Source: Paraburkholderia agricolaris
GTDB taxonomy: Bacteria > Pseudomonadota > Gammaproteobacteria > Burkholderiales > Burkholderiaceae
Length of the DNA stretch: 64,000 bases
Assembly: GCF_009455635.1 (NCBI RefSeq)
Contig: NZ_QPER01000001.1
Span: forward strand, 3,596,001-3,660,000
Reading direction: 5' to 3'
The position numbers were made by a program, and so were the translations under genes. Below are positions 10,126-55,088 of the stretch, piece after piece (position 1 is the first letter of the stretch; every line of letters starts with the position of its first letter). A model generated the notes under the pieces. The model did not search any database. It saw only the letters and a list, made by a program, of their open reading frames with translations, and had not been told where the DNA came from.

Positions 10126-10148
10126 CGCGGTTTGCCTTAAATTTACTG

Positions 10149-11900: not shown

Positions 11901-12661
11901 CAGGCGCCCTCCTCGTTATTACAGGTGTTCGAATGGACAAAGGAGGCCGCAGGTTCGGCGCGGCAGTCTGAAGATCGGTCCGGAAAGCGGAAATCAGGCA
12001 TGGCAAAACGCGTAGGCGCGGTAAATCGTTAGCGTTGGAGACACATAGACCGGTGCGGACGTGTCCTTGGGCGAGCTGCCCAGGACCGGTACCACGAAGC
12101 CGGACTCCTCTGTCGCCGCGGGCGCCGCCCTAAGGCTGGCGGGCTTTCCTTGTTTTGGACGGCACGACACTACACCATCCTATGTTTCAGGCACAACCTT
12201 TCGCGCCAAATACCGGCAAACAGCCGCGTACGCCGCAACGACGGCCTTCAAAAGGCCTTCATCCAGCGTTGATCCGGCGCAATACAGCAAGTTATTTACC
12301 GACGTGCGCCAGCCATTTTCCCGGCAATCGCGAGCGCGGCCCGGAAATGCATTTCAAACACCCGGAAAACCCGCGCGGCCATTCAGAAAGCCGACACGCT
12401 GCCGTTAAGGCCCTGATGAGCGAGGCGGACACGCTTCGCATTCCCGCAATAACAGTGGCGTCAGGCCCCATGACGGTTAAAATCAAAAAACGACACGCTA
12501 TGTACGGTGACCGGGACACAGCACGGTCCACACCGAGGCCGCATCGCCAGCCGCTTCCATAAGGGCGTCACAGCTGGGCGAAAACAACCGGGCAAAACGG
12601 CGCCACCGCGCTGCCACGAATGAGCTAGTTGCATGTCACAGCCAGACGGAACAGAGGGTCG
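11901..12661. other. Long intergenic leader region with a strong stem-loop
   Basis: About 760 bases between the divergent ABC operon and diguanylate cyclase gene. On the ABC (minus) strand the part near 12045-12135 is GC-rich and foldable: GTCC-T-GGGC / GCCC-A-GGAC (12063-12086) with a 5-base loop and one bulge, flanked by two copies of ACCGGT (12049, 12085) that can pair outside it. I do not recognise a known riboswitch consensus. No coding frame with a ribosome-binding site was found in the rest. Confidence 0.45.
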
Positions 12662-14353
12662 ATGAACAGGACAACCTTGCGCCAGGCAGCCGGACCGATC
12701 AGCTTCGCGCTGATCGTGCTCGTTTGCTGGTTCGTGGCCGGCATGGTCGCGGACCGGATGGTACAGCAAGAGCTGGACGCGGCCATGCGCACACAGCGCC
12801 AAATGTCCACGTCGATCGTCGACAACATGGCCGAGGTGATTGCGAGCGACCTCTCGATGTCCCGGGCTATCCCCGCCACCATGGCCGAAATGAACGTGGT
12901 CCAGCGCGCGCTGGTGCAATCCCAGAATTATGCCGCGAACGGCGAAGCGACGGAACCCGCCCTGCGCGCCGCGTTGTTAAAAGACCCGCAGATGCTCGCC
13001 GTGAGCAACTTCCTGCATGACGCACAAGGCTTCTCCGGGCTCGATCAGATCTGGCTCGTCAACACCAACGGCACCTGCGTCGCGTCGAGCAACTCCATCA
13101 ATAACCCGCTCGCCGCGGAACGCTCCTTCGTCGGCGTCGACATGCGCACCCGCAGCTATTTGACAAATGCCCTGCTCGGCGCGTTTTCGGAAGCTTATGG
13201 CGTGGGCCGCTCGAGCGGCGAGCCGGGCATCTTCATCGCAGCGCCGGTTTACACCGACGGCCTGCTGGTCGGAGCCGTCGTAGCCAAAGTGGGGATCGCG
13301 CGGCTGCGCCACTGGGTCGCCCATACCGGCACCTTCGTGGCCGACGAGCACGGCGTCATCATCATGGCGCACAACAGCGATCTTGAAGGCCATGCCCTGC
13401 CAGATTCGCGCGTCACGCAGATGAGCGCCGCCGAGCGCAAGGCCATCTACCGCCGCGACATCCTCCCCGACATCCGGATTCAGGTCGACGCACAAGTACG
13501 CGAGCAGGCGCCCTGGGTACCCGCAGCCATCGCCAGCCAGTTGTTCGGCATGAGCGCGCAGCAAACGCCTGCGTTGTATCAGGCACGCGGCGGCCTGAAC
13601 TCGGGGCTATCGGCGCATCTGGTCGACCCGCTTGCGGCGTGGCCCGAACTGCTGCGCAATCACAAGCGCGATCATCTGCTGGTGTTTCTGACGCTGGCCG
13701 GCACGGTCGCCCTCGCGTGGGTGATCACCGTGTCGTACGTGCGGGAGCGGCGCCATCATCGCGCCACCCGCGATCTTGCCGAGCAACTGCAATCGGCCAA
13801 CACCCTGCTCTCGGCCGAAGCGCGCCACGACGCGCTGACCGGTGCGCTGTCGCGGCGCTACTTCCTCGACCTGCTGCGTCACGAGATAGAACGCGCGCAT
13901 GCAGGTAATCAGCCGCTGTGCGTGGCGATCGCCGATCTCGATCACTTCAAGCAGATCAACGACCGCTTCGGCCACGCCGCGGGCGACCGCGCGCTCGAGC
14001 ATTTCGTCGATACCTGCCGGGCTGAGTTGCGCGGCACCGATGCGATCGGCCGGCTGGGCGGCGAAGAGTTCGGCCTGCTGCTGCCGGCCACGAATCTGGA
14101 GGGGGGCCGCGAAGTCGTCGAACGCTTGCGTCTGCGTCTCAAGGCGGTTCCTTCGCCGAAGCTGCCGCCTTCGGTGGGTTTGAGCGTGAGCATCGGCATC
14201 ACCGAACTCTCCGCCGACGATCTGCCCGAGCGCATCATGAGCCGCGCCGACATGGCGCTTTACGCAGCGAAGACGGGTGGGCGCGACCGCACCGAAGCGC
14301 TTCCTCCCGACGATACCGCACCGCCCGCGCGCACGGTGGCCAACGCCTGGTAG
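12662..14353 (+). CDS. Membrane diguanylate cyclase with periplasmic sensor domain
   Basis: A 563-residue enzyme converting 2 GTP to cyclic di-GMP. Membrane segment 1 (about 11-33), a large periplasmic Cache/PAS-like sensor region (about 35-335), membrane segment 2 (about 338-360), a short helical linker, then a GGDEF domain (about 385-545). The active-site motif is GGEEF (466-470), and the product-inhibition I-site RGTD (457-460) sits exactly five residues upstream, so the enzyme should be active and feedback-inhibited. No EAL domain. Start MNRTTLRQAAG has AGAGGG upstream. The ligand of the sensor domain is unknown; the gene stands alone. Confidence 0.94.
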   Translation: MNRTTLRQAAGPISFALIVLVCWFVAGMVADRMVQQELDAAMRTQRQMSTSIVDNMAEVIASDLSMSRAIPATMAEMNVVQRALVQSQNYAANGEATEPALRAALLKDPQMLAVSNFLHDAQGFSGLDQIWLVNTNGTCVASSNSINNPLAAERSFVGVDMRTRSYLTNALLGAFSEAYGVGRSSGEPGIFIAAPVYTDGLLVGAVVAKVGIARLRHWVAHTGTFVADEHGVIIMAHNSDLEGHALPDSRVTQMSAAERKAIYRRDILPDIRIQVDAQVREQAPWVPAAIASQLFGMSAQQTPALYQARGGLNSGLSAHLVDPLAAWPELLRNHKRDHLLVFLTLAGTVALAWVITVSYVRERRHHRATRDLAEQLQSANTLLSAEARHDALTGALSRRYFLDLLRHEIERAHAGNQPLCVAIADLDHFKQINDRFGHAAGDRALEHFVDTCRAELRGTDAIGRLGGEEFGLLLPATNLEGGREVVERLRLRLKAVPSPKLPPSVGLSVSIGITELSADDLPERIMSRADMALYAAKTGGRDRTEALPPDDTAPPARTVANAW

Positions 14354-14577
14354 CGCCTGGTAACACCTGGCAGCGCCCGATAACGTCTGCTCTCACGGGT
14401 AATGCGCCGATCCGCGCCGGATTGCAGTTCGCGCCGCCCTGCCTGTCATGCCATTGGCACCCCGAGGAACGCGGCAACTGACGCAAAGCAAATCACGCCC
14501 TCGGAAGTTCCGTAAGGATGCAGGTATCATCAACCCTGACATTGAGGTTGCCGCTACCGCTCTAACGGGAGATTCGC

Positions 14578-14844
14578 ATGAAGGGAAATTTGGTCATCGT
14601 CTGTCGCGATCAGGATGCCGACGCATTCGACCATTTGCTGGCCGAATATGGCGCGTTCCAGACACGCCTGTCGTCGACCGCGTGGTATCTGAAACTGGAT
14701 GTCGCACCGGAATTGATTCAGGAAGAAATACTCACGCGTCTCGGCAAGTACACCACACACTACATTTTCGAAGCCGAAACGGTCACGTGGAATACGGTGG
14801 ATAGCGACGCGGCGAATGCGTTGAACACGCTGTTTTCAGACTAG
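14578..14844 (+). CDS. Small conserved-type protein, possible Cas2/VapD-like ferredoxin fold
   Basis: An 88-residue acidic protein with GGGAG upstream. The N-terminus MKGNLVIVCRDQDADAFDHL looks like a beta strand plus helix; then SSTAWYL, EEILTRL and HYIFEAETVTW follow. The order strand-helix-WYL strand-helix-strand ending in Trp resembles small Cas2-fold proteins often annotated as SinR-like, but no catalytic residue can be assigned and no CRISPR locus is nearby. Single-gene unit between the diguanylate cyclase and the two-component genes. Function unknown. Confidence 0.75.
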   Translation: MKGNLVIVCRDQDADAFDHLLAEYGAFQTRLSSTAWYLKLDVAPELIQEEILTRLGKYTTHYIFEAETVTWNTVDSDAANALNTLFSD

Positions 14845-14919
14845 CGCAACGGCTGCCGGACGCGCATTCCGGCACGAACACAGCGGGGCCCAGGCGCCTG
14901 CCGCCCTTGCCCCGCCAAC

Positions 14920-16236
14920 CTACCAGACGCTTTCCGAGGCCGCCATAACACGCGGCACCACCTCGAACGGAAAGCTCATCAAGACCCGCAAGCCACGGCC
15001 TTCGTGGTTGCCGATCTCCCACTCCCCGCCCGCACGCCGCACCAGACGCTCGACGATCGCGAGCCCCAGTCCGCTATGGCCATTGCCGCCGCGTGCTGGG
15101 TCGAGCCGGACGAACGGCCGGCTGGCATTGATCAGGTCCTGCGCGGCGATACCGCTGCCGTTGTCGCTCACCGACAGCGTGAAGCCTTGCGCCGTGCGCG
15201 CCGTGGCGACAACGATCGGCGGCGCGCCGTAGGCATGGGCGTTGTCCAGCAGGTTCGAGAGGATCCGGTCGAGCGTCGCCGCGGGCAGCAGGAAACCGGG
15301 CCCCGCGTTGAGTTCGGTTCGCACCGTGGGCGCGCCGGCAGCGACCGCACGATAACTGCGGACCACGCGTTCGCACTGCGCGTCCACTTCGACCGCTTCG
15401 CTGCGGTCGGCGCCGTCGTGGGCGAACACCAGAAACTGTTCGACGATGTGCGTCATTGAATCGACGTCGCGCACGACGCCATCACGCATTTTCACTTCTT
15501 CCATCATTTCGGCGCGCAGCCGCAAGCGTGCCAGCGGTGTTTTCAGATCGTGCGCGACGCCGGCCAGCATGACGGCCCGGTCGTTTTCAGTACGTGCCAC
15601 TTCCTGAACCATCTGGTTGAAGCCATGCGTCAACTGCCGCAATTCGCGCGGACCGCGCTCGGGCACCGGCGGCACCGGCAAGCCGCGGCCGAAGCGCGCC
15701 ACCGCCTGGGCAAGCGAGCGCAACGGCTGCTGCAGCGCCCATGCGGCAAACAGCGCCGCCATCACCGCAAACGAGAAAATGATCGCGAGCCACAGCACCG
15801 TGCGATCGAGCGAGCGCGGCGGCCGCAACGGCTGCACCGGCACGACGATCCAGTTGCGATCCGTGGTGGCGCGCACCCACAGCGTGGGCGGACGGCCAGG
15901 CTGGCCGATTCGCACCAGGGTGCCGGGCGGCATGCGATCGCGCACGTCTTCGATAAAGCGTTCGAGCGGCGCCGGCAAGGTGGCGATATCCGGCGGCACG
16001 TCGGAGCTGGCCGGATCGACCAGCCGTACTCGCGACGGCAAGGGCTGGTCCGGCGTGCGGGCAACGTGCTGGCGTACCGCGTCGACGAGGAAGGTGGCCT
16101 CCTCGACGGCGTAGCGGGTTTGCAATTGGCTGCGCTCGAGCCGCATCAGCGCGTACCACGCGAAATGCGACAGGAGCAGCACCGCAATGACTAGCAGCGC
16201 GAGGCGCCCGAACAGTGAATCAATGGGCCGACGCAT
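14920..16236 (-). CDS. Sensor histidine kinase (EnvZ/RstB-like architecture)
   Basis: A 438-residue inner-membrane kinase: membrane segment 1 (about 12-32), periplasmic loop (about 33-160), membrane segment 2 (about 165-187), HAMP linker, HisKA with phospho-accepting His in AHDLKTPLARLRLR (about residue 229), and HATPase with N-box NLLDNAHAYG, G1 DNGSGI and G2 GHSGLGLAIV. The start MRRPIDSLFG overlaps the response regulator gene by 17 bases, indicating coupled translation; MANS four residues earlier is an alternative. Its partner is the regulator immediately upstream. Confidence 0.92.
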   Translation of the reverse strand: MRRPIDSLFGRLALLVIAVLLLSHFAWYALMRLERSQLQTRYAVEEATFLVDAVRQHVARTPDQPLPSRVRLVDPASSDVPPDIATLPAPLERFIEDVRDRMPPGTLVRIGQPGRPPTLWVRATTDRNWIVVPVQPLRPPRSLDRTVLWLAIIFSFAVMAALFAAWALQQPLRSLAQAVARFGRGLPVPPVPERGPRELRQLTHGFNQMVQEVARTENDRAVMLAGVAHDLKTPLARLRLRAEMMEEVKMRDGVVRDVDSMTHIVEQFLVFAHDGADRSEAVEVDAQCERVVRSYRAVAAGAPTVRTELNAGPGFLLPAATLDRILSNLLDNAHAYGAPPIVVATARTAQGFTLSVSDNGSGIAAQDLINASRPFVRLDPARGGNGHSGLGLAIVERLVRRAGGEWEIGNHEGRGLRVLMSFPFEVVPRVMAASESVW

Positions 16237-16945
16237 GCTGTTCGCCATCCGGCACGAACACGTAGCCGCGCCCGCGCACCGTTTGAATGAAACGCGGCGT
16301 GGACGGGTCGGTTTCGAGAATGCGACGCAAACGCCACACCTGTACGTCGATGCCGCGATCGGTGCCGTCGTATTCCGGGCCATGCAGCAGTTCGAGCAGG
16401 CGCTCACGGGTGAGCGTGCGCATGGGGTGATTGACAAAAATCTTCAGAAGCGCGAATTCGCTACCCGACAGCGTGAGCGGCTTGTCTTCGTGATGCAGCG
16501 TGCGCGACTGGAAATCGAGCGTGAAGCGGCCGAAGTTGAACGGCTCGCGCTGCTCCGGCGCCGCCGCCGACGGCAGCGTGCGGCGCCGCCGCAGCACCGC
16601 CTGCACGCGCGCCAATAGCTCGCGCGGATTGAACGGCTTGCCGAGATAGTCGTCGGCGCCGAGCTCCAGCCCGACAATCCGGTCCACGTCATCAGCACGC
16701 GCGGTGAGCATGATCACAGGAATGTCGTCGCCCGACGCGCGCAGCTTGCGCAGCGCGGTCAGCCCGTCGACGCCCGGCATCATCAGATCGAGCACGATCA
16801 GATCAGGACGCTCGCGTTCGAGCCTGCGCTCGAGCGTGCCCGCGTCGTGCAGCACCGAGACTTCGATGCCCTGACGGGCCAGATAGTCGCGCAGCAGATC
16901 GCGCAATTCGACGTCGTCGTCAACAACAAGTATTTGAGTAGCCAT
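16220..16945 (-). CDS. OmpR-family response regulator
   Basis: A 241-residue DNA-binding regulator: receiver domain (1-120) with DDD (9-11), phospho-acceptor D53 in VLDLMMPG, T/K switch residues (MLTARA, GKPF), then a winged-helix output domain (about 138-236) with the typical GRFTLDFQSRTL start and RGRGYVF end. It is the first gene of the pair with the histidine kinase. It is divergent from a Spy/CpxP-like gene, with tandem direct repeats in the shared intergenic region, which suggests control of that gene and of itself, as in envelope-stress systems. Confidence 0.94.
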   Translation of the reverse strand: MATQILVVDDDVELRDLLRDYLARQGIEVSVLHDAGTLERRLERERPDLIVLDLMMPGVDGLTALRKLRASGDDIPVIMLTARADDVDRIVGLELGADDYLGKPFNPRELLARVQAVLRRRRTLPSAAAPEQREPFNFGRFTLDFQSRTLHHEDKPLTLSGSEFALLKIFVNHPMRTLTRERLLELLHGPEYDGTDRGIDVQVWRLRRILETDPSTPRFIQTVRGRGYVFVPDGEQHASAH

Positions 16946-17001
16946 GGGATGAAGTTTAACGCGCGGCAGGAGGGGTTTTCGATTTCAGACGGCCCGCAAG
17001 G

Positions 17002-17045
17002 GTTACCGGGTGTTACCGTGAAAGGCGCACGTAATGACCCGTAAT
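17002..17045. promoter_or_regulatory. 10-bp-phased direct repeats, candidate response-regulator boxes
   Basis: GTTACC occurs at 17002-17007 and again at 17012-17017; GTAAT occurs at 17031-17035 and again at 17041-17045. Both pairs have a 10-bp start-to-start spacing, i.e. one helical turn, as expected for head-to-tail OmpR-family dimers. They lie between the two-component genes and the divergent Spy-like gene. Assigning them to this regulator is inference. Confidence 0.5.
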
Positions 17046-17165
17046 AGCCACATCCGTCGGCGTAACACAGCGTTCGAGACGTTTCTCTACGCTGTGTCTT
17101 ACCGAATGCAGGCCGTCCTCTATCACCGGTTGCATCGTCGGCTATTCCATTACAAGGAGCCTTAC

Positions 17166-17693
17166 ATGTCCACCAAAAAAATCTCGCGCGTTCTCGCCGT
17201 TGCCGCTACTGCCCTTGCCATCGGCGCGGGCGCTGCCTATGCCGCACAACCCGCCGGTCAAGGCGGCCCCGGCGGCTGGCATGGCCACTTCATGAAGGAA
17301 CTGACGCAACTGCACGACCAGTTGAAGCTGAACGCGGATCAGGAAAAGCAATGGCAGGCCGCGCTCGACACGATGAAGCAGAACCATCAGGCCATGCGCG
17401 CCAACCATGAACAGATCAAGAACCAGATGAAGGCCGCTCAGCAGCAGCCGATCCTGGATCTGAACGCCATGGCGGCCGCGCACCAGCAAGTCGAGCAGAA
17501 AGACGCGCAACTGCGTCAACAAACCACGGACGCGTGGCTCGCCTTCTACAACGGCTTGAACGACCAGCAGAAGACTACCGTCAGCACGGCGCTAAAGCAG
17601 CGTTTTGCGAAGATGGAAGCCCGTCACGAGAAGATGCACGAGCGCTGGCAGCATCATAAGGGCGCGGCGTCGGCGCCGGCTGCCAATCAGTAA
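17166..17693 (+). CDS. Spy/CpxP-family periplasmic protein
   Basis: A 175-residue exported protein. The signal peptide (1 to about 28, ending AAYAAQ) is followed by an all-helical Lys/Gln/His-rich body. The pattern LKLNADQEKQWQ fits the LTxxQ motif region of Spy/CpxP proteins, with a second, weaker version at LNDQQKTTVS. Family members are ATP-independent periplasmic chaperones or negative regulators of envelope-stress kinases. The start MSTKKISRVL has AGGAG 8 bases upstream. Divergent from the two-component system, so it is probably its target or feedback element. Confidence 0.85.
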   Translation: MSTKKISRVLAVAATALAIGAGAAYAAQPAGQGGPGGWHGHFMKELTQLHDQLKLNADQEKQWQAALDTMKQNHQAMRANHEQIKNQMKAAQQQPILDLNAMAAAHQQVEQKDAQLRQQTTDAWLAFYNGLNDQQKTTVSTALKQRFAKMEARHEKMHERWQHHKGAASAPAANQ

Positions 17694-43064: not shown

Positions 43065-43141
43065 CGCTTGCTGGTTGCGATGTGGCGGAGGTGCGGCGTG
43101 TTGCACCCCGCTGTATTAGCTTGATTTAACCTGATGCACTG

Positions 43142-43180
43142 CGGCGGAATGTCGGTCTCGGCATTCCGCCGTTTTCTTTT
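43142..43180 (+). terminator. Intrinsic terminator of ppc
   Basis: CGGCGGAATG / CATTCCGCCG with a 10-base loop, followed by TTTTCTTTT. Confidence 0.85.
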
Positions 43181-43214
43181 GGCGCGGCTTATTGCACGCC
43201 GTTGCCTGCCGCGC

Positions 43215-43967
43215 TTACTGCGCCTCGACCATCAGCGCGTCGAGCTTGAACGAACCGTCTTCCTGCACATCGAAATACTGGCGCACCTCGTCGGGCGAAT
43301 TGCTCCACAACGAGCGAATCGCCACCACCCGTGGCTCCGGCGTGCGCATGCGCGCCACCCACGAGCTGAACTCGATCGCGATGCGCCAACGCTCACGAAT
43401 CGATGCCTTGAAACCGGCCGCTTCGAAGAACGCAATCCATTCGTCAGCGCGGTAGTCGCGAATGTGCGAGCCGTCGCGCAATACTTCGACTGCCTGAATA
43501 TGCGTGTCGAGCAGCGGATGATCGGCGCCGGCGATGTCGATGAACAACACCTTGCCGCCAGGCTTCAACACGCGCCGCACTTCGGCCAGCGCGAGCGGCA
43601 CGTCGTGCCAGTGATGCGCGCTCATCCGGCTGATGATCCAGTCGAACGAATGGTCGTCGAACGGCAGCGTTTCCGCGGCGCCTTGCTGCGTGCGAATGTT
43701 GGCGAGGCCGCGATCCTTCGCCGCGCCGTCGACCGTCGCCAGCATTTGCGGCGCGATGTCGTACGCGACCACTTCCTTTGCATGCGGCGCCGCCGCGAAA
43801 CTCGCGTGACCCGCGCCGCAGCCCATGTCGAGCACCCGGGCACCCGGCGTCGCCGCGATCGATTCGGCCAGCGTCTGCAGGTCGGCGCCGGTGGCATGCG
43901 TCTGACTCGTCAAATACGCGGCGGCGGTCGAGCCGAAGGCGTCGGCGACCTGATCGTGATGCTTCAT
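43215..43967 (-). CDS. Class I SAM-dependent methyltransferase (UbiE-like)
   Basis: A 250-residue cytoplasmic methyltransferase. SAM motif I is RVLDMGCGAGHAS (about 44-56); the following acidic motif is in VAYDIAPQML, motif II is in SFDWIISRMSAHHW, and motif III is RVLKPGGKVLFID. GGGAG lies upstream. It stands divergent from an XRE/MmyB-like regulator, and that pairing usually means the regulator controls the enzyme. Substrate unknown; similarity to UbiE is general, not proof of a quinone role. Confidence 0.9.
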   Translation of the reverse strand: MKHHDQVADAFGSTAAAYLTSQTHATGADLQTLAESIAATPGARVLDMGCGAGHASFAAAPHAKEVVAYDIAPQMLATVDGAAKDRGLANIRTQQGAAETLPFDDHSFDWIISRMSAHHWHDVPLALAEVRRVLKPGGKVLFIDIAGADHPLLDTHIQAVEVLRDGSHIRDYRADEWIAFFEAAGFKASIRERWRIAIEFSSWVARMRTPEPRVVAIRSLWSNSPDEVRQYFDVQEDGSFKLDALMVEAQ

Positions 43968-44054
43968 GGAAGACTCCCGTTGTCTATGTGGGGTTGGATT
44001 GGGCTTGGGCCGGGTTGGTCTGAACGACGCTGGGTCGTTCCAACCGTTACCGTT

Positions 44055-44083
44055 ACAATAGAACCGGTCGTGTACCAGTACAA
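44055..44083 (-). promoter_or_regulatory. Methyltransferase promoter overlapped by a palindrome
   Basis: On the minus strand -35 TTGTAC (44083-44078) and -10 TATTGT (44060-44055) are 17 bases apart, about 90 bases before the methyltransferase start. The -35 box overlaps TGTAC-CA-GTACA (44071-44082), an inverted repeat with perfect 5-bp arms, which would be a good site for a repressor such as the divergent XRE-type protein. That link is inference. Confidence 0.5.
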
Positions 44084-44168
44084 GTTAAGCAATTATTCTG
44101 GTATCAATAGCACCACCCCGGCACTACCCCGACACCACCCCGCTTCCTCCAAGCGCAGCCCGACAAGA

Positions 44169-44981
44169 ATGACCACGCCGCCCTCCGCCGACCACCCGCC
44201 GCCACTCGACGCCACGCCTGCCCGCGCGCTTGGCGATTTCATCCGCGCCCACCGTGAACGGCTCACGCCGCAAGCGCTCGGCCTGCCGCCCGGCCCGCGC
44301 CGCCGCACCCCCGGCTTGCGGCGCGAAGAAGTCGCGCAACTGTGCGGCGTCAGTCCGACCTGGTACACGTGGATCGAACAGGGCCGCCCGGTCTCCGCTT
44401 CCGCCGAGGCGCTGGCGCGGATCGCCGTGGCATTGCAACTGTCGCGCGCCGAGCGGGCGTATCTGTTCGAACTGGCCGCGCAGCGCGACCCGGCCGAGCC
44501 CGATCCGGCCGCCGCCGACGCTCCCGCCACCCTGCTCGAAACCGTGCAGCTCGTGAACGCCCCGGCTTACGTGCTCGACCGTCAGTGGAACGCGCTGGCG
44601 TGGAACGCGCGCGCCGCCGACCTGTTCGTCGGCTGGCTGGACGGCACCCACGATCGCAATCTGCTGCGCTACACCTTCACCGAACCGGCCGCGCGCGAAC
44701 TGATCGTCGACTGGGAAACGCGCGCGCGACGCCTCGCCGCCGAATTCCGCGCCGACTCGATTCGTCATCTGAACGACGCGCCCACGCGCGGGCTGATCGA
44801 CTCGCTCACCGCCGCCAGCGACGCGTTTGCGCGTTTCTGGGCGTCGCAGGACGTCGGCGGCCGGGAAGGCGGCCGGCGCGAATTCAACCATCCGCGCGAC
44901 GGCCGCATCATCTATGACCAGATCACCTTCAAGCCCGCGCATCGCGAGGATCTGAAGCTGGTGGTGCTGGTGCGGGAATAG
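44169..44981 (+). CDS. XRE-family regulator with MmyB-like ligand domain
   Basis: A 270-residue transcription factor. The N-terminal helix-turn-helix (about 20-90) contains the family segment TPGLRREEVAQLCGVSPTWYTWIEQGR; the C-terminal half (about 110-268) has the PAYVLDRQWNALAWNARAADLF motif of the MmyB-like fatty-acid-binding ligand domain. Such regulators usually repress a divergent enzyme gene and respond to a hydrophobic ligand. The start at 44169 is the first ATG after an AAG-rich leader; no strong ribosome-binding site, so moderately uncertain. Divergent from the methyltransferase. Confidence 0.9.
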   Translation: MTTPPSADHPPPLDATPARALGDFIRAHRERLTPQALGLPPGPRRRTPGLRREEVAQLCGVSPTWYTWIEQGRPVSASAEALARIAVALQLSRAERAYLFELAAQRDPAEPDPAAADAPATLLETVQLVNAPAYVLDRQWNALAWNARAADLFVGWLDGTHDRNLLRYTFTEPAARELIVDWETRARRLAAEFRADSIRHLNDAPTRGLIDSLTAASDAFARFWASQDVGGREGGRREFNHPRDGRIIYDQITFKPAHREDLKLVVLVRE

Positions 44982-45129
44982 CGGTGCTTTTGCCTGAGCG
45001 GCCTTGGGGCGGGCGGCATCTTTGATGCGGTCCGCCAGTGTTAAAATCCCTGTCTTTCGCTCATTCCGATGGCGCCCGCCCTGTACGCAAACGCCGTCAG
45101 CGTCCTCACCTCGTTCAAAGCCCAACACC

Positions 45130-46536
45130 ATGACGTCCCAACTGCACAAAAAAGGCGAAGCCTGGTCGGCTCGCTTCTCGGAGCCGATGTCGGAGCTCGT
45201 CAAACGCTACACGTCGTCGGTTTTCTTCGACAAGCGTCTGGCGCTCGTCGATATCGAAGGGTCGCTCGCGCACGCCTCGATGCTGGCCGCGCAGAAGATC
45301 ATCGCCGCCGACGACCTCGCCGCGATCCAACGCGGCATGGCGCAGATCAAGGGTGAAATCGAGCGAGGCGAGTTCGAGTGGCAACTCGATCTGGAAGACG
45401 TCCACCTGAACATCGAAGCGCGCCTGACCGCGCTGATCGGCGACGCCGGCAAGCGTCTGCACACGGGCCGCTCGCGTAACGACCAGGTCGCGACCGACAT
45501 CCGCCTGTGGCTGCGCGGCGAGATCGACCGCATCGGCGGGCTGCTGACGGAGCTGCGCACGGCCCTGCTCGACATGGCGGAGAAGAACGCCTCGACCATC
45601 ATGCCCGGCTTCACGCACTTGCAGGTGGCGCAGCCGGTCACGTTTGGCCATCACCTGCTGGCCTACGTCGAAATGTTTTCGCGCGACGCCGAACGCATGA
45701 TCGATTGCCGCAAGCGCGTGAATCGCCTGCCGTTGGGTGCGGCGGCTCTCGCCGGCACGAGCTATCCGATCGACCGTCACGCGGTGGCGAAGACCTTGGG
45801 CTTCGACGGCATCTGCGCAAATTCGCTGGATGCGGTGTCCGATCGTGACTTCGCGATCGAATTCACGGCAGCATCCGCGCTGGTGATGACGCACGTGTCG
45901 CGCTTCTCGGAAGAACTGGTTTTGTGGATGAGTCCGCGCGTCGGCTTCATCGATCTGGCCGACCGTTTCTGCACCGGCTCGTCGATCATGCCGCAGAAGA
46001 AGAACCCGGACGTGCCCGAACTCGCGCGTGGCAAGACGGGCCGCGTGAACGGTCATCTGATCGCGCTGCTCACGTTGATGAAGGGCCAGCCGCTCGCCTA
46101 CAACAAGGACAACCAGGAAGATAAGGAACCGCTGTTCGACACCGTCGATACGGTTGCAGACACGCTGCGCATCTTCGCTGAAATGGTCGCGGGCATCTCC
46201 GTGAAGCCGCAAGCCATGCGCGACGCCGCGTTGCAAGGCTTCTCCACGGCCACCGATCTCGCCGATTACCTGGTCAAGCGAGGTCTGCCGTTCCGCGACG
46301 CGCACGAAGCCGTGGCGCTGGCGGTTCGCGTGTGCGCCGATCGTGGCTGCGATCTGGCCGACCTGACGCTGGAAGAAATGCGTCAGGAACTGCCGAACGT
46401 CGCGCATCTGATCGGCGACGACGTGTTTTCGTATCTGACGCTCGAAGGTTCGGTGGCCAGCCGCAACCATCCGGGCGGCACGGCGCCCGAGCAGGTGCTT
46501 GCCGCGGTCAAGGCCGCACGGGAAGCGTTGAAGTAA
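45130..46536 (+). CDS. argH: Argininosuccinate lyase
   Basis: A 468-residue cytoplasmic enzyme of the aspartase/fumarase superfamily, releasing arginine and fumarate from argininosuccinate in the last arginine-biosynthesis step. Hallmarks are [26 protein letters not shown] and the superfamily signature [11 protein letters not shown] (about 283-293). The start [13 protein letters not shown] is the typical N-terminus; earlier in-frame starts were discarded. Monocistronic, with a terminator after it. Nothing unusual. Confidence 0.96.
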
Positions 46537-46665: not shown

Positions 46666-46757
46666 AAATGAAAGACTTCCACCGATGCCTCTCGAAAGAG
46701 GCCAACGAAGTGTAGGCTCGTTTTAGCCGAAGAGAAATCCGGTCATATTTCAGCCTG

Positions 46758-49700
46758 TTACAACGCCACCGTCTCCGGTATAGGGGGAAGAAAGCCCGCG
46801 TCGCGCAGATAGCCGATGTAAAGCCGGATCATCGCGCCGTAGTCGGTCGTCAACGCCACGCCGTGCCGCGCAAGCTCGGTCAACGTGTCGATCTGCTCGA
46901 CCGGCAACGGTGCGGCGGAAAGGTCACCGGTATAGAAGTCGCGAATCAGCGCCAAACCGTTCGACGCATCGAGACCCGCCAGACGCCGCTGCCAGTCGGC
47001 CGGCACCTGTGCCTCGGCATGCAAGCCACAAGCAGCGAACACAGCAAACCACTGACGCAAGGACAGGGCGAACGGATTGTTCAGGTTCGCCACGCGGATG
47101 CCGGCACGCGGATGCAGCACCATTGCCGTCAGCGCGCTCGCGAGCTGATCGACCGGCATCATCTCGACTTCCCGCGCCGTTTCCGGATAGGCACCGAGTT
47201 GCAAGCAGCCCTGAGTGAACAGCCAGAAATGGTTGCGCGCGAAATTGCTAAAACCGGTGCGGCTGTCGCCGGTGATATTGCCGGGTCGAGCAATGAGCGC
47301 CGGCAGGCCGAAGCGGCGTGCGCACTCCGCGACCCGTTGTTCGCTCACCCATTTCGTCAGCAGATAGCCGTTATCCAGCAACGGACGCGCGCGGCTCACA
47401 TGCTCGTCGATGCGCACGGCGCCCTCCAGCATCTCGCCAACCGACAGCGTCGAGACGAAACAGAACGGTTTTTGCCGCTGCGTCAGTGCGAGCCGCAGCA
47501 AAGCCTCGGTGCCGCCGACATTCGCGGCCTTCATCTCCTCGTAGCTATGCAGGTGATGGACGAATGCGCCGCAGTGCAGGATCGCGTCGACCTCCCCCGC
47601 GAGTTGCCGCCAGCGCGATGCGTCGAGTCCAAGTTGCGGCGCGGCGAGATCGGCAGGAATCACCTCGACGCGGCTGAAGTCGATCGCCAGCCCCGCCTCG
47701 CGCGCCTTCTCCTCCAATACGGCGCGGCCGGCATCAGCGCTCGCGCAGCGTTGCAGGCAAATCACCTTGTCGATCCGGGCGCACAACGCGTGCAGCAGGT
47801 AAATGCCGAGGAAACCGCTCGCGCCGGTCAGCAGCATCGTGCGAATCGGCGCTGGCTCGGCGGCCTCAGAGCAAGCTGGCGCGGCATGTTCGGCAACGAA
47901 CGGCGTCGACGCATCGGCAATCGCGCGCTCGATCATGTCCTCGTGACCACCGTGCGCGAGCGTCGCGACGGTCGGCGAGCGGTAAAACTCAGCCATCGCA
48001 AAATCGATGCCGAGCGTTTCGCGCAATTGCGCCTGCATCCGCCCCGCCAGAATCGAATTGCCGCCGAGCCGAAAGAAACTGTCGTCGCGGCCGATGCCGG
48101 AAACGCGCAGCAGCACCTGCCAGATTCCGGCGATGCATTGCTCGACGCCTTCGCGCGGCGGTGTGCCGCTTGCGCGTGAGGGCGCGGGCAACGCCTTGCG
48201 ATCATGTTTGCCGTTCGGCGACGCCGGCAGCGCGTCCAGCCGGATGAAACACGCCGGCACCATGTAGTCGGGCAGCGCCTGCGACACATGGCGGCGCAGC
48301 GTGTCTTCATCGGGCACCGCACCGTCTTCGTTCGATCCGGCAACGCCGACGTAATACGCAGCCAGATAGCGCGCGTCACCTTCGCCCCACACGCGACACG
48401 CGGCATGCGCGACACCGGACGCGGTCGCGATGCAATTCTCGATCTCGCCGAGTTCGATGCGAAAGCCACGCAGCTTGACCTGCTCGTCGTTGCGGCCAAG
48501 GTATTCGATCGTGCCGTCGGAGAGAAAACGGCCGAGGTCGCCCGTCCGGTACATCAGCGCGTACGGTGCATCGCGAAACGGATCGACCACGAACCGTTCC
48601 ATCGTCATGGCCGACTGGTTGATATAGCCGCGCGCCAGATTTTCGCCGCCGATGTAGATTTCACCGACCGTGCCGGGCGGCGCCAGTTGCCGCTGCGCAT
48701 TCAGCAGATAGAGCCGGTAACCCGGCAGCGGCTTGCCGATGATGCGGCTCGGCCCACCCGGCAACACGTGTCCGCACGAGGCCATCACCGTGATTTCGGT
48801 GGGACCGTACAGGCTGAATAGCCGCGTGTGTTCACTCCACCAGGCAGCGCTCGGTTCGTCCAGCGTATCGCCGCCGAATCCAAGCAGTTGCAGATCGGGT
48901 AGCGGCTCGCGCGGCAGGCTCTGCACCACTACCGGTGCAAGCGAAGCATGCGTGACGCGCTCCGCTTTCAGCAAGCTGTGCAACAAGCGCGGATCGCGGC
49001 GCGCCTGCTCCGGCAACACGATGAGCGTGCCGCCGTGCAGCAGCGCGAGAAACAGATCGAGCACGCTTGCGTCGAAATTGGTGGACGCCGCCAAGGTGCT
49101 GATGCTGCCCGGCGCATAGCCGAGCGCGCGACTCGCGGCGGCCACCATTCGAACCACGCTGTGATGTTCGACCAGCACACCCTTCGGCTTGCCGGTCGAG
49201 CCCGACGTGTGGATCACATAAGCGAGCGCCTCGGGAACGACAGCCTGCTGCCGGTACGGCTGCCCCACCTGCTTCGCCAGCAGCGCCGGGTCGATCTGGT
49301 GCAATTCGCCGAGGCCGGCGGCCTCCAGCGCGAGGCGGCTCGGTTCATCGGCGAGCACCGTATCGACCGAACAGTTTTCGACGAAGTAGCGCAGGCGTTC
49401 GGCGGGATAGGCCGGGTCGAGTGGCACATACGCGCAACCGGCTTTGAGCGTGCCCAGCACGGTAGCCACCAGCAGGACGCTCTTCTGCATGCTCAAACCA
49501 ATCCGCGCACCGGCCGGCATGCGGGCTGACAAGCCGTGAGCGATAGCATCGCTAAGCGCGTCGAGTTCACGATAGCTGAGCTGCTCCTCACCACAGCGCA
49601 CGGCAACGCGCGATGCATGTGCCGCGACCACCTCGGCGAAACGCGCCGGGATCGACTGCGCTGCATCCGGCAGCGGCTCGCCGCACGCGAAGCTCAAACA

Positions 49701-52700
49701 CCGCGCATGTTGCGCATCACTCAGATAGGCAAGTTCGCCGACCGGCGTGTCAGGCTGACGAGCAGCGGCATCGCAGAGCGTCATGAACACCTCCGCCATC
49801 CGCTCAACCGAAGCCTCATGCAGCACCGAACTGTCGTATTCGAAGCGTCCGTCCAGCCCACCATCGGGCCGCACATAGAAAATCGCCGACAGGTCCGCTT
49901 TCGACGTCAGCGGAGGGCGTTCCTCGGCGTAATAAGCCGCTCCGCCGATATGGCCGTTCAGCTCAATGCCGTTTTGCAGACTGAAGATCGTGTTCAGCGC
50001 ACCGAGCTGATCGTTGTCCGTGTCGTAAGGCGTGGCGAGCAGATGATCGCGGTCGTCGAGCATCTGCCGTTGCACCGCACGCGCCAGTTCGCCGAACCCT
50101 TGCCGCGTGTCGATGCGCTGCACCAGCACGGCCATCGACACGAACATGCCGTAGATCTGCTCGCTGCCGGGAACATCGCGGCCCGCATACGGATAGGCAC
50201 AGGCCAGTTGCTGCTGGCCACTCACGCGCCACAGCCAGATAAGATACAGCGCGAATAGCAGAGGCGGCAACGTCATGTCGTGCGCATCGGCAATCTGCTT
50301 CAGGCGTCGCACCTGGGCCGGCCGTACATGTAGCGCCAACGAGCGGTTGGCGTTAGGTTCGCGCTGCAATGCGTCGAACGGCAATTCCGTGCGCAAGGCA
50401 AGCGTGTCGAGCTTGCGTGTCCAGTACTCACGCGCGGTGGCAAAACGCGGCGATTGCACTAATTGCTGCGCCCAACGACCGTGGTCGAACCACGAGAGCC
50501 GCTCTTCTGAAACCGGCTGGCCTTCGTAGCGCAACGTCAATTCATCGAGCAACAGTTTGAACGACCAGCCGTCGAAGATCGCGTGATGAATGCAGAGCAG
50601 CAAAGTGGTGCGGCTCTCTCGCGGGGACATGAGCAATTGCGCACGCCACAACGGCGCACAGTCGAGTGGCAAATTCACTGCGCGCATGGCATCGGCATAC
50701 GCTTCGATCGCGCCGGCATCACAGCTCTCTAAAGGAACGGATATAGGCGCGGGCGAATCCACCAGGTTGGCGGTTTCGCCCGGCAGCAGCCACAACTGTC
50801 CGCCACGTTCCGCGAAGCTCGCGGTGAAGATGGGGTTATGCGCGAATACGCCGACGAGCGCCTGATGCAAACGCAACGGATTCGCTGCGCCGTCGAAGTC
50901 CACCCGCATCACGATGTTGTACGCGTTATCTGCAGGCTTGCCGAGCGCGCGGGTATGCATCATCCGCACGAGCCGGCTAGCTACGGGCGCGGACGTGGGC
51001 GGACCTGATTGCGCAGTTAGCGGCGGCAGCGCGGGGCCCGGTTCGACGCCCTGCCGCGCGCTTGCGCAAAAGGCGTCGAACTGCGGATGCTCGAACAGCG
51101 TCTTCAGCTTGACGGTTGCGGACAGGCTCGCGCTGACACGATTGCACACGAGCGTGGCAAGCAGCGAGTGGCCGCCCAGGTGGAAGAAGTGGCTGTCCTC
51201 CCCGACGCTGTCGAGCGGCACGCCCAGCACGTCCGACCAGATCGCTTGCACGGCCAGTTCGAAGGCGTCGAAAGCGCGCTTCGCGGAGTCGGCCGGACCG
51301 GTTTGCGGCGCCGGCAATCTGCTGCGGTCGATCTTGCCGTTCAGCGTCAAGGGCAGCGCTTCGACCGGCAGCAGGAAGGCCGGCACCATGTAATGCGCGA
51401 GTCGTTGCGCAAGACGGTTTCGCAGAATCGCAGGCTCCAGCGCGGCCCCTGCATACCAGGCCACGAGTGCCGTCCCACCCTGCCGCTCGCAGGTACCGAC
51501 ATAGGCGCTACGCACCTCCGGCTGTTCGACGATGCTGGCCTCGATTTCGCCCAGCTCGATCCGGTAGCCGCGAATCTTCACCTGAAAATCGCTGCGCCCG
51601 AGAAATTCGATCGCGCCATCCGGCTGAAAACGGCCGAGATCGCCGGAGCGGTAGAGACGTCCTGGGGCAAACGGATTCGCCCGAAACTTCTGCCCGGTTA
51701 GTTCGGGCCGCAGCAGATAGCCACGCGCAACCGCCGCGCCGCCAATGCAGATCTCGCCGATGCCGCCGAGCGGCACCGGTTCGCCTTCCTCATCGAGCAG
51801 ATGAATCTGATAGCCGGGCAGCGGATGGCCCAGTTGATTGGCGGGCTTGTCGCCGTCGAAGGTGTTTTCGGTCGCCATCACGGTGGTCTCGGTCGGGCCG
51901 TAGATGTTCGACAGGCGCAGCATGCCGGACCAGAAGCGGATCGTCTCGTCGTCGCTCGCTTCACCGCCACAGAGAATCGTGTCCAGATGCGGCAGCGCGC
52001 GCCGTGGCAGCAGCTTCAGAATCGCCGGCGGCAGGAACGCATGCGTGATGCGTTCGCCGTCGAGGAAGGCGGACAGTGCGTCAGCATCGGTGCGCACCGC
52101 TTCGGGCGCGACGATCAGATGGCCGCCGTGCGTCAGCGGATTGAAAATCTCCAGCACGCTGGCGTCGAAATTGACGGACGCGAACTGCAGCCAGCGCGTG
52201 CTCGCGTCACGCCGGTAGCGGCCCGTCAGCGAGGCGATCAGGTGCGCCAGCATGCCGCGCTCGATGACCACGCCCTTGGGTTTGCCCGTCGTGCCCGAGG
52301 TGTAGATCACGTAGGCGGTGCGTTGCGGATCGAGCGGCGCGCCTGGCGCGGAAGCCGATCCAGCCAACCCGGCCGGCGGGCCTGTCAGCAGATCGTCGAT
52401 CCGGTATAGCGCGCAATCGACCAGCGCGCTCAAACGCTCGTGGGTTGCCGCATCGACAATCACGGCGCGCAGTTGCGCATCCTTGACGATGTAGCGCAAG
52501 CGCTCATCCGGCATCTGCGGGTCGAGCGGCAGGTAGCCCGCGCCATGGGTGAGCACGCCAAGCATGGCCGGAACGATGCACGCGCCACGCGAAATGCAAA
52601 TGCCGATCAACGTGTCCCGTCCATCAGACATGTCCGGCGCATTCGGCGCATTCGGTTCAAGCGCGGCCAGGGCTGCGCTCACGCGTTCGGTGGCGAGCGC

Positions 52701-54137
52701 CAGTTGCGCGTAGGTGAACGCAGCGTCCGGGCCGCTGACCGCGGGATGCGCGGCGTGCTCGCGGGCCGCCTGTGCGAACAGATCGAGCACGTCGCGCGCG
52801 GGTACGGCAAGCGAACCGCCATCGGACCACGCCGCGCAATGGCGTCGCAACACCGGCGTATACAGATCAATCGCATCGACCTTCTGCCCGAGACTCTCGC
52901 CGACGCGCCCGAGCAGCGCCGTCAGATGCCCGAACGCGAGACGCAAGCCGTCGAGTTCCTGGGGATAGCGGCTGTGCACGTGCAACGCGATCTCTTCACG
53001 CACGTCGAGATAGACGCCGATGTCCTCGTGCGAGAAACGGCGCGAGTACGGCGCCAGCAAGGTCGCGGACAAGGTGCCGAGCATGAGTGCGTCGTAGGGC
53101 AAGCTGTCGGTTTCGCACACCACGTTGGTCCCACGCACGAAACCCGGTTCGCGCCGCTCGATGTCGTACAGCACCTCAAAGGCCGGAAGTTCGGCGTGAA
53201 AATCCGCCATCTCGGCGCGCGCCGCCGCGTGCCGAAGAAACTGCCGCAGCGTCATCGTGTCGTCGAAGTCGGTTTTCAGGAAGCGCCGCCGTTCGTCGAA
53301 ACCGATCGTCTCGTCGCGTTGACAGCGGCCGCGCTGGTGATGCGCGGTAAGCACCGCGCGGCTGCCGGTCATGCGGTGCAGCAGCACGTGAACACACAGT
53401 TTGATCAGCAGATCGGGGGCGACGCCGAGCGTATGGGCCTCACTGCGCAAAGCAGCGGCTGTCCGCGCATCGAGGCGCAGCGTAAAGCTGCTGTCGGCGA
53501 GCGCATTTTGCCTGCGCGGCGCGTGCCATTCGAACGAAGCGTCGCCCAGTTGGCCAATCCAGAAATCGAGGTCGGTCTGCAAACGGTCATTCGCGAGGAG
53601 CTCACGCTCGGCGTCGAGCAGGCCTTGCTGATCGATGCCGAGCGGTGCGACCGGCGCTGTGCCGCAATAGGTCCGCGAAAGCGCATCGAACAACGGCCTC
53701 AGCGAAAAACGGTCGAGCAAAGCAGGATGGCAGGCGAACACCAGATAACTCTGGGCGCCGGCGCGCAGCAGCGTGAACGCCCACGGCAGCCCGGCGTCCA
53801 GCCGGAAGGCACGCGCGCACAGGCCGTCGATCAAGGACAGCACAGCGGCTTCGTCGCGCTCGTCACGCTTGTCACACTCGTCACGCCGGTCAAGATCGAT
53901 GACGTTCAGCTGTGCTCCCACATCGCGGCGGATGACCCAATGCGCGCCCTGTTCGGTGTCGACGAGCCGGTAGGCAAGCGGCCGGCAGTGCGCCACTAGC
54001 TGTGTCACGGCAGCGGACAGCCGCTCGACGTCCGGACAGCCGTCGATGCGGTAAACGGCACAGAGATTGGAGCCCGCGGCGGCATGCGCCAGAGTGCGGG
54101 ATTGCGTGCGCGTCAGCGCAAAGGAAGTGTGTTCCAA
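46758..54137 (-). CDS. Non-ribosomal peptide synthetase, C-A-T-C-A-T-R
   Basis: A 2459-residue assembly line with two modules and a reductive release domain. C1 (about 1-430) has CHPALLD (136-142) where HHxxxDG is expected, so it is probably inactive or specialised. A1 (about 450-955) has YTSGTTGKPKG, IYGPTET and NGKIDR. T1 has its phosphopantetheine Ser at 991 (GGHSL). C2 (about 1045-1480) has an intact HHAIFDG (1184-1190). A2 (about 1490-1990) has HTSGSTGKPKG, LYGPTEI and NGKHDRK. T2 Ser is at 2028 (GGNSI). R (about 2095-2455) is a thioester reductase with TGASGFLG (about 2102) and YLLTK (2258-2262). No epimerase, methylase or thioesterase domain. Product unknown; a reduced dipeptide is predicted. 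Confidence 0.93.
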   Translation of the reverse strand: MEHTSFALTRTQSRTLAHAAAGSNLCAVYRIDGCPDVERLSAAVTQLVAHCRPLAYRLVDTEQGAHWVIRRDVGAQLNVIDLDRRDECDKRDERDEAAVLSLIDGLCARAFRLDAGLPWAFTLLRAGAQSYLVFACHPALLDRFSLRPLFDALSRTYCGTAPVAPLGIDQQGLLDAERELLANDRLQTDLDFWIGQLGDASFEWHAPRRQNALADSSFTLRLDARTAAALRSEAHTLGVAPDLLIKLCVHVLLHRMTGSRAVLTAHHQRGRCQRDETIGFDERRRFLKTDFDDTMTLRQFLRHAAARAEMADFHAELPAFEVLYDIERREPGFVRGTNVVCETDSLPYDALMLGTLSATLLAPYSRRFSHEDIGVYLDVREEIALHVHSRYPQELDGLRLAFGHLTALLGRVGESLGQKVDAIDLYTPVLRRHCAAWSDGGSLAVPARDVLDLFAQAAREHAAHPAVSGPDAAFTYAQLALATERVSAALAALEPNAPNAPDMSDGRDTLIGICISRGACIVPAMLGVLTHGAGYLPLDPQMPDERLRYIVKDAQLRAVIVDAATHERLSALVDCALYRIDDLLTGPPAGLAGSASAPGAPLDPQRTAYVIYTSGTTGKPKGVVIERGMLAHLIASLTGRYRRDASTRWLQFASVNFDASVLEIFNPLTHGGHLIVAPEAVRTDADALSAFLDGERITHAFLPPAILKLLPRRALPHLDTILCGGEASDDETIRFWSGMLRLSNIYGPTETTVMATENTFDGDKPANQLGHPLPGYQIHLLDEEGEPVPLGGIGEICIGGAAVARGYLLRPELTGQKFRANPFAPGRLYRSGDLGRFQPDGAIEFLGRSDFQVKIRGYRIELGEIEASIVEQPEVRSAYVGTCERQGGTALVAWYAGAALEPAILRNRLAQRLAHYMVPAFLLPVEALPLTLNGKIDRSRLPAPQTGPADSAKRAFDAFELAVQAIWSDVLGVPLDSVGEDSHFFHLGGHSLLATLVCNRVSASLSATVKLKTLFEHPQFDAFCASARQGVEPGPALPPLTAQSGPPTSAPVASRLVRMMHTRALGKPADNAYNIVMRVDFDGAANPLRLHQALVGVFAHNPIFTASFAERGGQLWLLPGETANLVDSPAPISVPLESCDAGAIEAYADAMRAVNLPLDCAPLWRAQLLMSPRESRTTLLLCIHHAIFDGWSFKLLLDELTLRYEGQPVSEERLSWFDHGRWAQQLVQSPRFATAREYWTRKLDTLALRTELPFDALQREPNANRSLALHVRPAQVRRLKQIADAHDMTLPPLLFALYLIWLWRVSGQQQLACAYPYAGRDVPGSEQIYGMFVSMAVLVQRIDTRQGFGELARAVQRQMLDDRDHLLATPYDTDNDQLGALNTIFSLQNGIELNGHIGGAAYYAEERPPLTSKADLSAIFYVRPDGGLDGRFEYDSSVLHEASVERMAEVFMTLCDAAARQPDTPVGELAYLSDAQHARCLSFACGEPLPDAAQSIPARFAEVVAAHASRVAVRCGEEQLSYRELDALSDAIAHGLSARMPAGARIGLSMQKSVLLVATVLGTLKAGCAYVPLDPAYPAERLRYFVENCSVDTVLADEPSRLALEAAGLGELHQIDPALLAKQVGQPYRQQAVVPEALAYVIHTSGSTGKPKGVLVEHHSVVRMVAAASRALGYAPGSISTLAASTNFDASVLDLFLALLHGGTLIVLPEQARRDPRLLHSLLKAERVTHASLAPVVVQSLPREPLPDLQLLGFGGDTLDEPSAAWWSEHTRLFSLYGPTEITVMASCGHVLPGGPSRIIGKPLPGYRLYLLNAQRQLAPPGTVGEIYIGGENLARGYINQSAMTMERFVVDPFRDAPYALMYRTGDLGRFLSDGTIEYLGRNDEQVKLRGFRIELGEIENCIATASGVAHAACRVWGEGDARYLAAYYVGVAGSNEDGAVPDEDTLRRHVSQALPDYMVPACFIRLDALPASPNGKHDRKALPAPSRASGTPPREGVEQCIAGIWQVLLRVSGIGRDDSFFRLGGNSILAGRMQAQLRETLGIDFAMAEFYRSPTVATLAHGGHEDMIERAIADASTPFVAEHAAPACSEAAEPAPIRTMLLTGASGFLGIYLLHALCARIDKVICLQRCASADAGRAVLEEKAREAGLAIDFSRVEVIPADLAAPQLGLDASRWRQLAGEVDAILHCGAFVHHLHSYEEMKAANVGGTEALLRLALTQRQKPFCFVSTLSVGEMLEGAVRIDEHVSRARPLLDNGYLLTKWVSEQRVAECARRFGLPALIARPGNITGDSRTGFSNFARNHFWLFTQGCLQLGAYPETAREVEMMPVDQLASALTAMVLHPRAGIRVANLNNPFALSLRQWFAVFAACGLHAEAQVPADWQRRLAGLDASNGLALIRDFYTGDLSAAPLPVEQIDTLTELARHGVALTTDYGAMIRLYIGYLRDAGFLPPIPETVAL

Positions 54138-54530
54138 ACGATACCTCGTTGTCGGGGTGGACAGGACCGATCGGCTCGCATAAGCGCCGGCCGCGCGCGA
54201 CTCATGACCGCGCTGCGGCGCTTCGCCAGATGGTCGGGCCCACGCTATTGACGTGAGGTTGTCGTCACCATAGGAAAACTCTTAGAACTCCTGCTGTGTG
54301 TGGACCGGTATTAACACTCTTTGATCAAACACGGCTTATGTCAGGCGGATCGCATCAGACTGAATGCGCTCATGCAGACGACAGAAAGGCAATGGAAAGA
54401 ACACCACGCGCAACGCGCAAGCGAACCGGATCGCAGGGCACCGGACCGGCACACAGGGCGAACGACAATTGCATCCTGGCGCTTTTTGACTACCATCAAG
54501 TTAGACCCTGTCCCAATGCTTTCCACAACG
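54138..54530. other. Divergent intergenic region upstream of the NRPS
   Basis: About 390 bases between the NRPS and the TonB-C-like gene, expected to contain promoters for both. No clear sigma70 box pair or lux-box-like palindrome was found. The frame of the TonB-like protein stays open upstream to 54321, so its true start may lie anywhere in 54321-54618. Confidence 0.4.
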
Positions 54531-55088
54531 ATGCTCATCCGTACGCGTCACCTTCGTCGCTTGACCGGGCCCTGCGCTTGCCGCGTCGGCGGATCGTTAT
54601 TGCAAGCACATCGGGCGATGTCGGTATCGGTTTTGACCGTAGCGTCGACGCTGGTGCTTGCGGTCATGGCGGGCTGCACCATCACGCCGCCTGATCGCCC
54701 GCTCGTCATCACGCCGGCCGCCGCCGTCAATAGCGCGACGCTCGATCAATACCGCAGCGCGGTCGCCAGACGCATCATCGACCGCAGTCCGTCCTATGTG
54801 CTGCACGGCACACCGCAAGCCATGCTGCGCTCGCTGGTGGTGGTGTCGTTCACGGTGGATCGCAATGGCCAGGTGCTGCAGTCGTCGGTGTATCGCACCA
54901 ATGGCGACGACGAAGCCGAGAGCACCGCGCTCGCCACCTTGCGGCGCGCCTCGCCGCTGCCGCAACCGCCTGGCGTATTGCTGAATGGCCGCGGGCAACT
55001 CGAACTGTTCGAGGACTGGCTCTTCAACGACAACGGCAAATTCCAGTTGCGCGAGTTCGCCTCGCCGCAAGCGCAGACCATCGAGTAA
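54531..55088 (+). CDS. Putative lipoprotein with a TonB C-terminal-like domain
   Basis: About 185 residues from the start chosen here. After a basic n-region, a hydrophobic stretch ends in LVLAVMAGC (lipobox), then a periplasmic part. The C-terminal segment LRSLVVVSFTVDRNGQVLQSSVYRTNGDD followed by ATLRRASPLPQPP is the TonB-C fold pattern (strand-strand-helix-proline). There is no Pro/Lys-rich spacer or membrane-spanning N-terminus typical of true TonB, so it is a TonB-like lipoprotein rather than an energy transducer. Start codons at 54516, 54531 and 54618 are all weakly supported. Confidence 0.72.
   Translation: MLIRTRHLRRLTGPCACRVGGSLLQAHRAMSVSVLTVASTLVLAVMAGCTITPPDRPLVITPAAAVNSATLDQYRSAVARRIIDRSPSYVLHGTPQAMLRSLVVVSFTVDRNGQVLQSSVYRTNGDDEAESTALATLRRASPLPQPPGVLLNGRGQLELFEDWLFNDNGKFQLREFASPQAQTIE

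Follow-up and report, generated by a model that had tools for sequence, protein, structure and literature searches.

The 64,000-nucleotide stretch of Paraburkholderia agricolaris DNA that was analysed (the window; contig C1:3596001-3660000 of an 8.72 Mb genome in 2 contigs) carries a single gene for a free-standing dimodular nonribosomal peptide synthetase (NRPS), in which a full-length first condensation domain (C1) has been kept through nearly all of the family without its catalytic histidine. This retained dead domain is the most interesting feature of the enzyme. The NRPS probably releases a dipeptide reductively as an aldehyde that would go on to a (dihydro)pyrazinone; the substrates, the two-electron release, the cyclisation and the role are what we infer from the protein sequence. 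A stand-alone two-module NRPS with reductive release had been proposed by the first-pass annotation and is supported by domains, motifs and context; the reduced or cyclised dipeptide named there as product appears to be of the right class. As far as the searches reach, the NRPS is an uncharacterised member of a known C-A-T-C-A-T-R kind, and no close characterised homologue was found in the searches made. Free-standing reductive dipeptide synthetases of other bacteria make pyrazinones and protease-inhibiting aldehydes, the function of which is debated (PMC8210680, in excerpt). As the locus consists of a single gene, has a clean empty counterpart in relatives and shows no recognised partner genes, its product might be obtained from a single expression experiment.

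The uninterrupted 2459-residue frame in C-A-T-C-A-T-R order was present on the minus strand as annotated (Table 1). It was open at the same 2459 aa in P. fungorum (L009) and open also in L011, L012, L013, L014 and L017; dN/dS of the whole gene in these six pairs was 0.16-0.21, and the frame is therefore not a chance one. The TTG start and the GAGGTA just upstream of it were identical in 8/8 sequences compared (window included); the GAGG is presumably Shine-Dalgarno-like. Scanning of 54100-54600 for a promoter gave none.

Pfam gave two Condensation, two AMP-binding, two AMP-binding_C and two PP-binding stretches and NAD_binding_4; NCBIfam: TIGR01733, 762.6 bits (cut-off 317.4); TIGR01746 (thioester reductase), 260.3 bits (cut-off 213.35). 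A, T and C domains are thus followed by an R domain of the TIGR01746 type, and the whole order of a C-A-T-C-A-T-R pyrazinone-type dimodular NRPS is contained in one protein. Motif search found A4 (NFDAS), A5 (YGPTE), A8 and NGK(I/H)DR in both A modules; A3 was matched by its pattern in module 2 alone, and module 1 reads YVIYTSGTTGKPKG in the printed sequence. R contains the SDR motifs TGASGFLG (nucleotide binding) and YLLTK together with the Thr-Tyr-Lys set. The intact A, T, C2 and R motifs reported earlier were thereby recovered, and the lack of HHxxxDG in C1 is consistent with C2 alone having been named there.

Table 1. Features of the NRPS locus (positions of the window)
Feature	Position	Strand	Basis
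argH, argininosuccinate lyase; flanking gene, not part of the pathway	45004..46536	plus	neighbour scan
NRPS gene, 2459 aa, C*-A1-T1-C2-A2-T2-R	46758..54137	minus	ORF list, Pfam, NCBIfam, motifs
Segment present or absent as a unit, ~7.7 kb, NRPS gene only	46764..54455		argH-locus comparison
R, terminal thioester reductase, residues 2091-2455; TGASGFLG cofactor motif, T2230/Y2258/K2262	46773..47867	minus	NCBIfam, motifs
T2 carrier domain, LGGNS	47952..48155	minus	Pfam, motif search
A2 adenylation domain, residues 1495-1985, code DALSGGLVMK	48183..49655	minus	Pfam, alignment
C2 condensation domain, residues 1058-1485	49683..50966	minus	Pfam, tree
C2 motif HHAIFDG, intact	50568..50588	minus	motif search, alignment
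T1 carrier domain, LGGHS	51063..51275	minus	Pfam, motif search
A1 adenylation domain, residues 452-945, ten-residue code DALFLGIVMK	51303..52784	minus	Pfam, alignment
C1, full-length degenerate condensation domain, residues 1-451	52785..54137	minus	Pfam C 60.7 bits; profile-profile vs C2
C1 active-site motif HPALLDR in place of HHxxxDG, residues 137-143	53709..53729	minus	motif search, alignments
GAGG, presumed Shine-Dalgarno-like, 6 bases before the TTG start	54144..54147	minus	sequence comparison
TonB C-terminal-like small protein; flanking gene	54321..55088	plus	neighbour scan

Of 7988 candidates scored in the protein search, 7736 had E ≤ 0.001, and the best 120 were taken further; the family alignment (88 rows) consisted of the query and the 87 of these having 2300-2520 aa, the other 33 being left out for length. 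Identity to the query ranged from 95% down to 39%; named sources included Paraburkholderia, Caballeronia, Candidatus Competibacteraceae, Desulfonatronovibrio, Desulfobulbus, Riflebacteria, Thiorhodovibrio frisius and Planctomycetota. Named members carry domain-type names, except P0004 ('Linear gramicidin synthase sub...'), which was taken for an automatic name. All 88 rows keep the second C2 His, the Ser of both carrier domains and the Tyr and Lys of R, and 87/88 keep Thr2230 of R; the C2, carrier and R key residues are kept as well in four further relatives (L041, L042, L077 and L078; 52, 30, 55 and 46-55% identical, respectively; the C1 part of L078 lies in another frame). Scanning of genome contigs gave seven loci, all from Paraburkholderia. 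An orthologue (>65% identity, alignment from residue 1 or 2) was found in at least 7/97 genomes of the genus, own included, with three candidates scored per genome among the matches listed, so that misses are possible. Literature searches for pyrazinone with Paraburkholderia, and for thioester reductase, pyrazinone and NRPS in Burkholderia, found none.

Profile-profile alignment of C1 with C2 (26 chosen rows of 88) spanned 388 columns at 99.2% probability, and C1 is hence a whole C domain. Its catalytic His is absent in 87/88 family members (composition of the column: P 68, S 9, A 6, G 1, E 1, R 1, T 1, H 1) and in all four further relatives (L041, P; L042, P; L077, G; L078, P); P0074, the one row with His there, carries Gln in place of Gly. 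Asp142, the next Asp of the motif, and Ser145 occur in 88/88 rows, and H-P...D-R is still kept in a relative only 30% identical overall. Given how widely it is spread, the His loss is probably ancient within the family. As the catalytic residue is missing, C1 is expected not to acylate the first amino acid.

A quick tree of 90 C domains placed the C1 rows (n = 26) and the C2 rows (n = 26) each behind a branch of 100% SH-aLRT; 37 of 38 reference domains fell apart from both, and the 38th (P0081, a Pseudomonas relative) inside C2. Mean identity of C1 was 37% vs 48-59% for A1, C2, A2 and R (47-53% tier), C1 thus changing faster than the other large domains. With dN/dS of 0.16-0.27 in six pairs, C1 is, judged by these ratios, under purifying selection, retained and not drifting; T2 gave 0.36-0.64 in four of six pairs (short domain, dS 0.16-0.18). 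When candidates were scored over residues 1-455, 42 of 7986 matched, 24 of which were members of the same NRPS family and 18 other NRPSs of 23-32% identity; C1 is therefore recognisable mainly within its own family. As a query it was found, own genome included, in 3/369 genomes of the class and 4/200 of the family (E ≤ 1e-20) and in 1/299 of the phylum (E ≤ 1e-15). Against solved structures there was one weak match (6p1j, 6.8e-5); an AlphaFold2 model of C1 (8 close sequences; mean pLDDT 45.7) was set aside.

It may tentatively be proposed that C1 is a dedicated non-condensing domain with a conserved motif of its own, H-P-x-x-x-D-R-F-S-L, and another job; as part of the same tentative reading, it could dock a partner in trans, shape the loading of T1 or assist ring closure of the dipeptide aldehyde. 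X domains, known from glycopeptide NRPSs, are placed late in their assembly lines; the dead C domain here is N-terminal. They are likewise relatives of C domains that have lost HHxxxDG and no longer condense, and they recruit P450 enzymes (PMC8949500, in excerpt), whereas no P450 gene was seen among the 8 neighbours scanned here. Were the non-condensing reading of C1 true, the family, whose enzymes act alone, would possess its own equivalent of the X domain at the N-terminus; the dead C1 makes the role of such domains in C-A-T-C-A-T-R enzymes a testable question.

Positions of the substrate codes were set by motif and follow, as we take it, GrsA numbering. The A1 code (identical in 16/88 rows) matched by eye 7/10 residues of the commonest Leu code (DAWFLGNVVK), 6/10 of the commonest Ile code and 5/10 of the commonest Val code (DALWIGGTFK) (codes from PMC12283262, in excerpt); it is thus nearer to the Leu than to the Val code. 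The aureusimine synthetase of Staphylococcus (AusA/PznA) takes Val at A1 and Tyr/Phe at A2. On a weak reading, the A1 substrate may be aliphatic and Leu-like. The A2 code (15/88 rows) matched no confirmed code, and a literature search for its assignment found none; its substrate looks hydrophobic, again a weak reading.

Since the His of C1 is lost, a start from a free amino acid, one condensation and reductive release of a dipeptide are to be expected. A1 would load an aliphatic amino acid onto T1, C1 leaving it unacylated; A2 would load the second, probably hydrophobic one onto T2; C2 would make the single peptide bond, and R with a nicotinamide cofactor would release the dipeptide, most likely as the aldehyde. 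The free amine would then close on the aldehyde to a cyclic imine (dihydropyrazinone), to be oxidised to the pyrazinone. Phosphopantetheine would be supplied by a transferase encoded elsewhere; two PPTase-type genes lie far off in the genome (C1:1060357 and C2:736574, both contig positions). Pyrazinone synthetases are described as usually having the C-A-T-C-A-T-R architecture (PMC10979478, in excerpt), and the product of AusA, written A-T-C-A-T-R, is given as an aldehyde that cyclises (PMC12153313, in excerpt).

The earlier label 'AusA-type' holds for the way of working (two modules, one productive condensation, terminal R) and fails for membership: the AusA equivalog model NF047350, third among the NCBIfam matches, gave 855.5 bits vs a cut-off of 2500, R is nearer to that of MxaA, and the PPTase gene adjacent to ausA (ausB) has no equivalent among the 8 NRPS neighbours scanned (argH, TonB-like and MFS genes included). 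The model aligned as a single stretch to residues 960-2340 (T1-C-A-T-R), residue 960 matching model position 910; the best alignment of A1 by itself was with model positions 1439-1911, by length the second A domain, and C1 alone gave no match at E up to 1. The model may, by inference from these positions, leave room for ~400 residues before A1. Dipeptide-aldehyde/pyrazinone NRPSs of gut bacteria are reportedly those of Guo et al. 2017. They follow the same dipeptide aldehyde logic, likened here by description (as cited in PMC8210680, in excerpt); likened in the same way are C-A-T-C-A-T-R NRPSs of Bacillus, of the same domain order, with a presumed modified dipeptide, the product of which is given as not known in the excerpt of PMC5686519.

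Release could be different in kind: with a four-electron reduction by R, the product would be a linear dipeptide alcohol and there would be no cyclisation. This is a serious alternative, if the less likely one. Among solved structures, R came closest to MxaA (myxalamid; 165.9 bits) and then to a chain labelled type I polyketide synthase (153.6 bits), with AusA R scoring 63.1 bits; for the protein as a whole, the MxcG (myxochelin) model reached 861.6 bits where its cut-off is 2300. By the titles of references cited in PMC8949500, MxaA R is reportedly linked with primary alcohols, and myxochelin release is said to proceed by both two- and four-electron reduction. The likeness to MxaA is one of the R domain only, the MxaA assembly line itself differing from the two-module NRPS, and sequence affinity of R alone cannot tell two- from four-electron release. 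An aldehyde with a free N-terminal amine cyclises rapidly, and the free N-terminus expected from the dead C1 favours this course. That amine would be blocked if C1 were a starter domain acylating through another residue, giving an N-acyl dipeptide aldehyde of the protease-inhibitor type, which is improbable. SrfAA C1, which we take to be of the starter type, did not group with C1 in the tree, where C1 forms its own clade; the first C domain reads HPALLDR and not the intact HHxxxDG of N-acylating NRPSs, and the near-universal absence of the His described above speaks against acylation. No acyl-CoA ligase was found among the 8 window neighbours (Pfam), the other contexts having been judged by eye from ORF translations. 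The full length of C1 and the purifying selection on it would fit a starter domain, and compounds of the N-acyl dipeptide aldehyde type have been described from gut bacteria (PMC8210680, in excerpt).

That the gene is a decaying accessory relic, making nothing in the P. agricolaris strain, is improbable. Its sparse occurrence in the genus would agree with decay, as would the frames broken near residue 1947 in L010 (P. elongata, 10001-17112) and near residue 1704 in L015 (P. solitsugae, 10001-17411) and the broken C1 pieces in genomes G838 and G890; the open frame in the window and six other sequences, with the low overall dN/dS, opposes it. A P. elongata database protein (P0007, 1980 aa) is without the R domain, and L013 (P. 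polaris) carries ~68 additional aa in frame within A2, near residue 1622 (L013 about 14827-15032). Sequencing or assembly error is a possible source of both breaks and of the insert. As two of the seven Paraburkholderia loci have broken frames, the product, for which a cyclised dipeptide aldehyde is still preferred, may be dispensable.

The order argH-NRPS-TonB/MFS, with the TonB-like gene and then an MFS transporter gene on the far side of the NRPS gene from argH, was found in 6/7 Paraburkholderia loci; L012 has the TonB/MFS side only. Among the best 30 argH loci (94 genomes searched), the NRPS gene adjoined argH in six; of the 24 loci without it, 21 had the TonB-like gene within the stretch examined and three had neither. 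The distance between the junctions (window 46752-46763 and 54456-54466) was 20-40 bp in 10/24 loci; 11 others had longer or diverged spacers, and three gave no right flank. The true start of the TonB-like gene is probably downstream of 54461, the listed one falling inside the variable segment. Relatives in four other genomes had unrelated neighbours (ORF translations by eye). No co-travelling gene was seen in the loci compared, so modification and export would be in trans or absent; no mobile-element gene was seen among the neighbours scanned.

The dS of the NRPS gene vs L009 was 0.11, within the 0.09-0.15 of the flanks; vs L011, L013 and L014 it was 0.41, 0.47 and 0.44, above each of seven flanking genes per pair (0.17-0.41), and vs L012 1.10, above the four flanking genes measured (0.35-1.03). 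Weaker codon constraint, recombination or separate exchange could account for the raised values. Horizontal transfer was not supported by composition, the GC of the region being in line with the window. Elsewhere in the genome, 16 of 18 condensation-domain matches fell in a separate multi-protein NRPS region (contig C1:2608276-2655705), the other two being those of the 2459-aa NRPS. Beside argH (43134-44981) lies a gene for an MmyB-like regulator (HTH_31 + MLTR_LBD); since the listed frame reaches these domains only at residue 365, the gene is probably shorter than listed.
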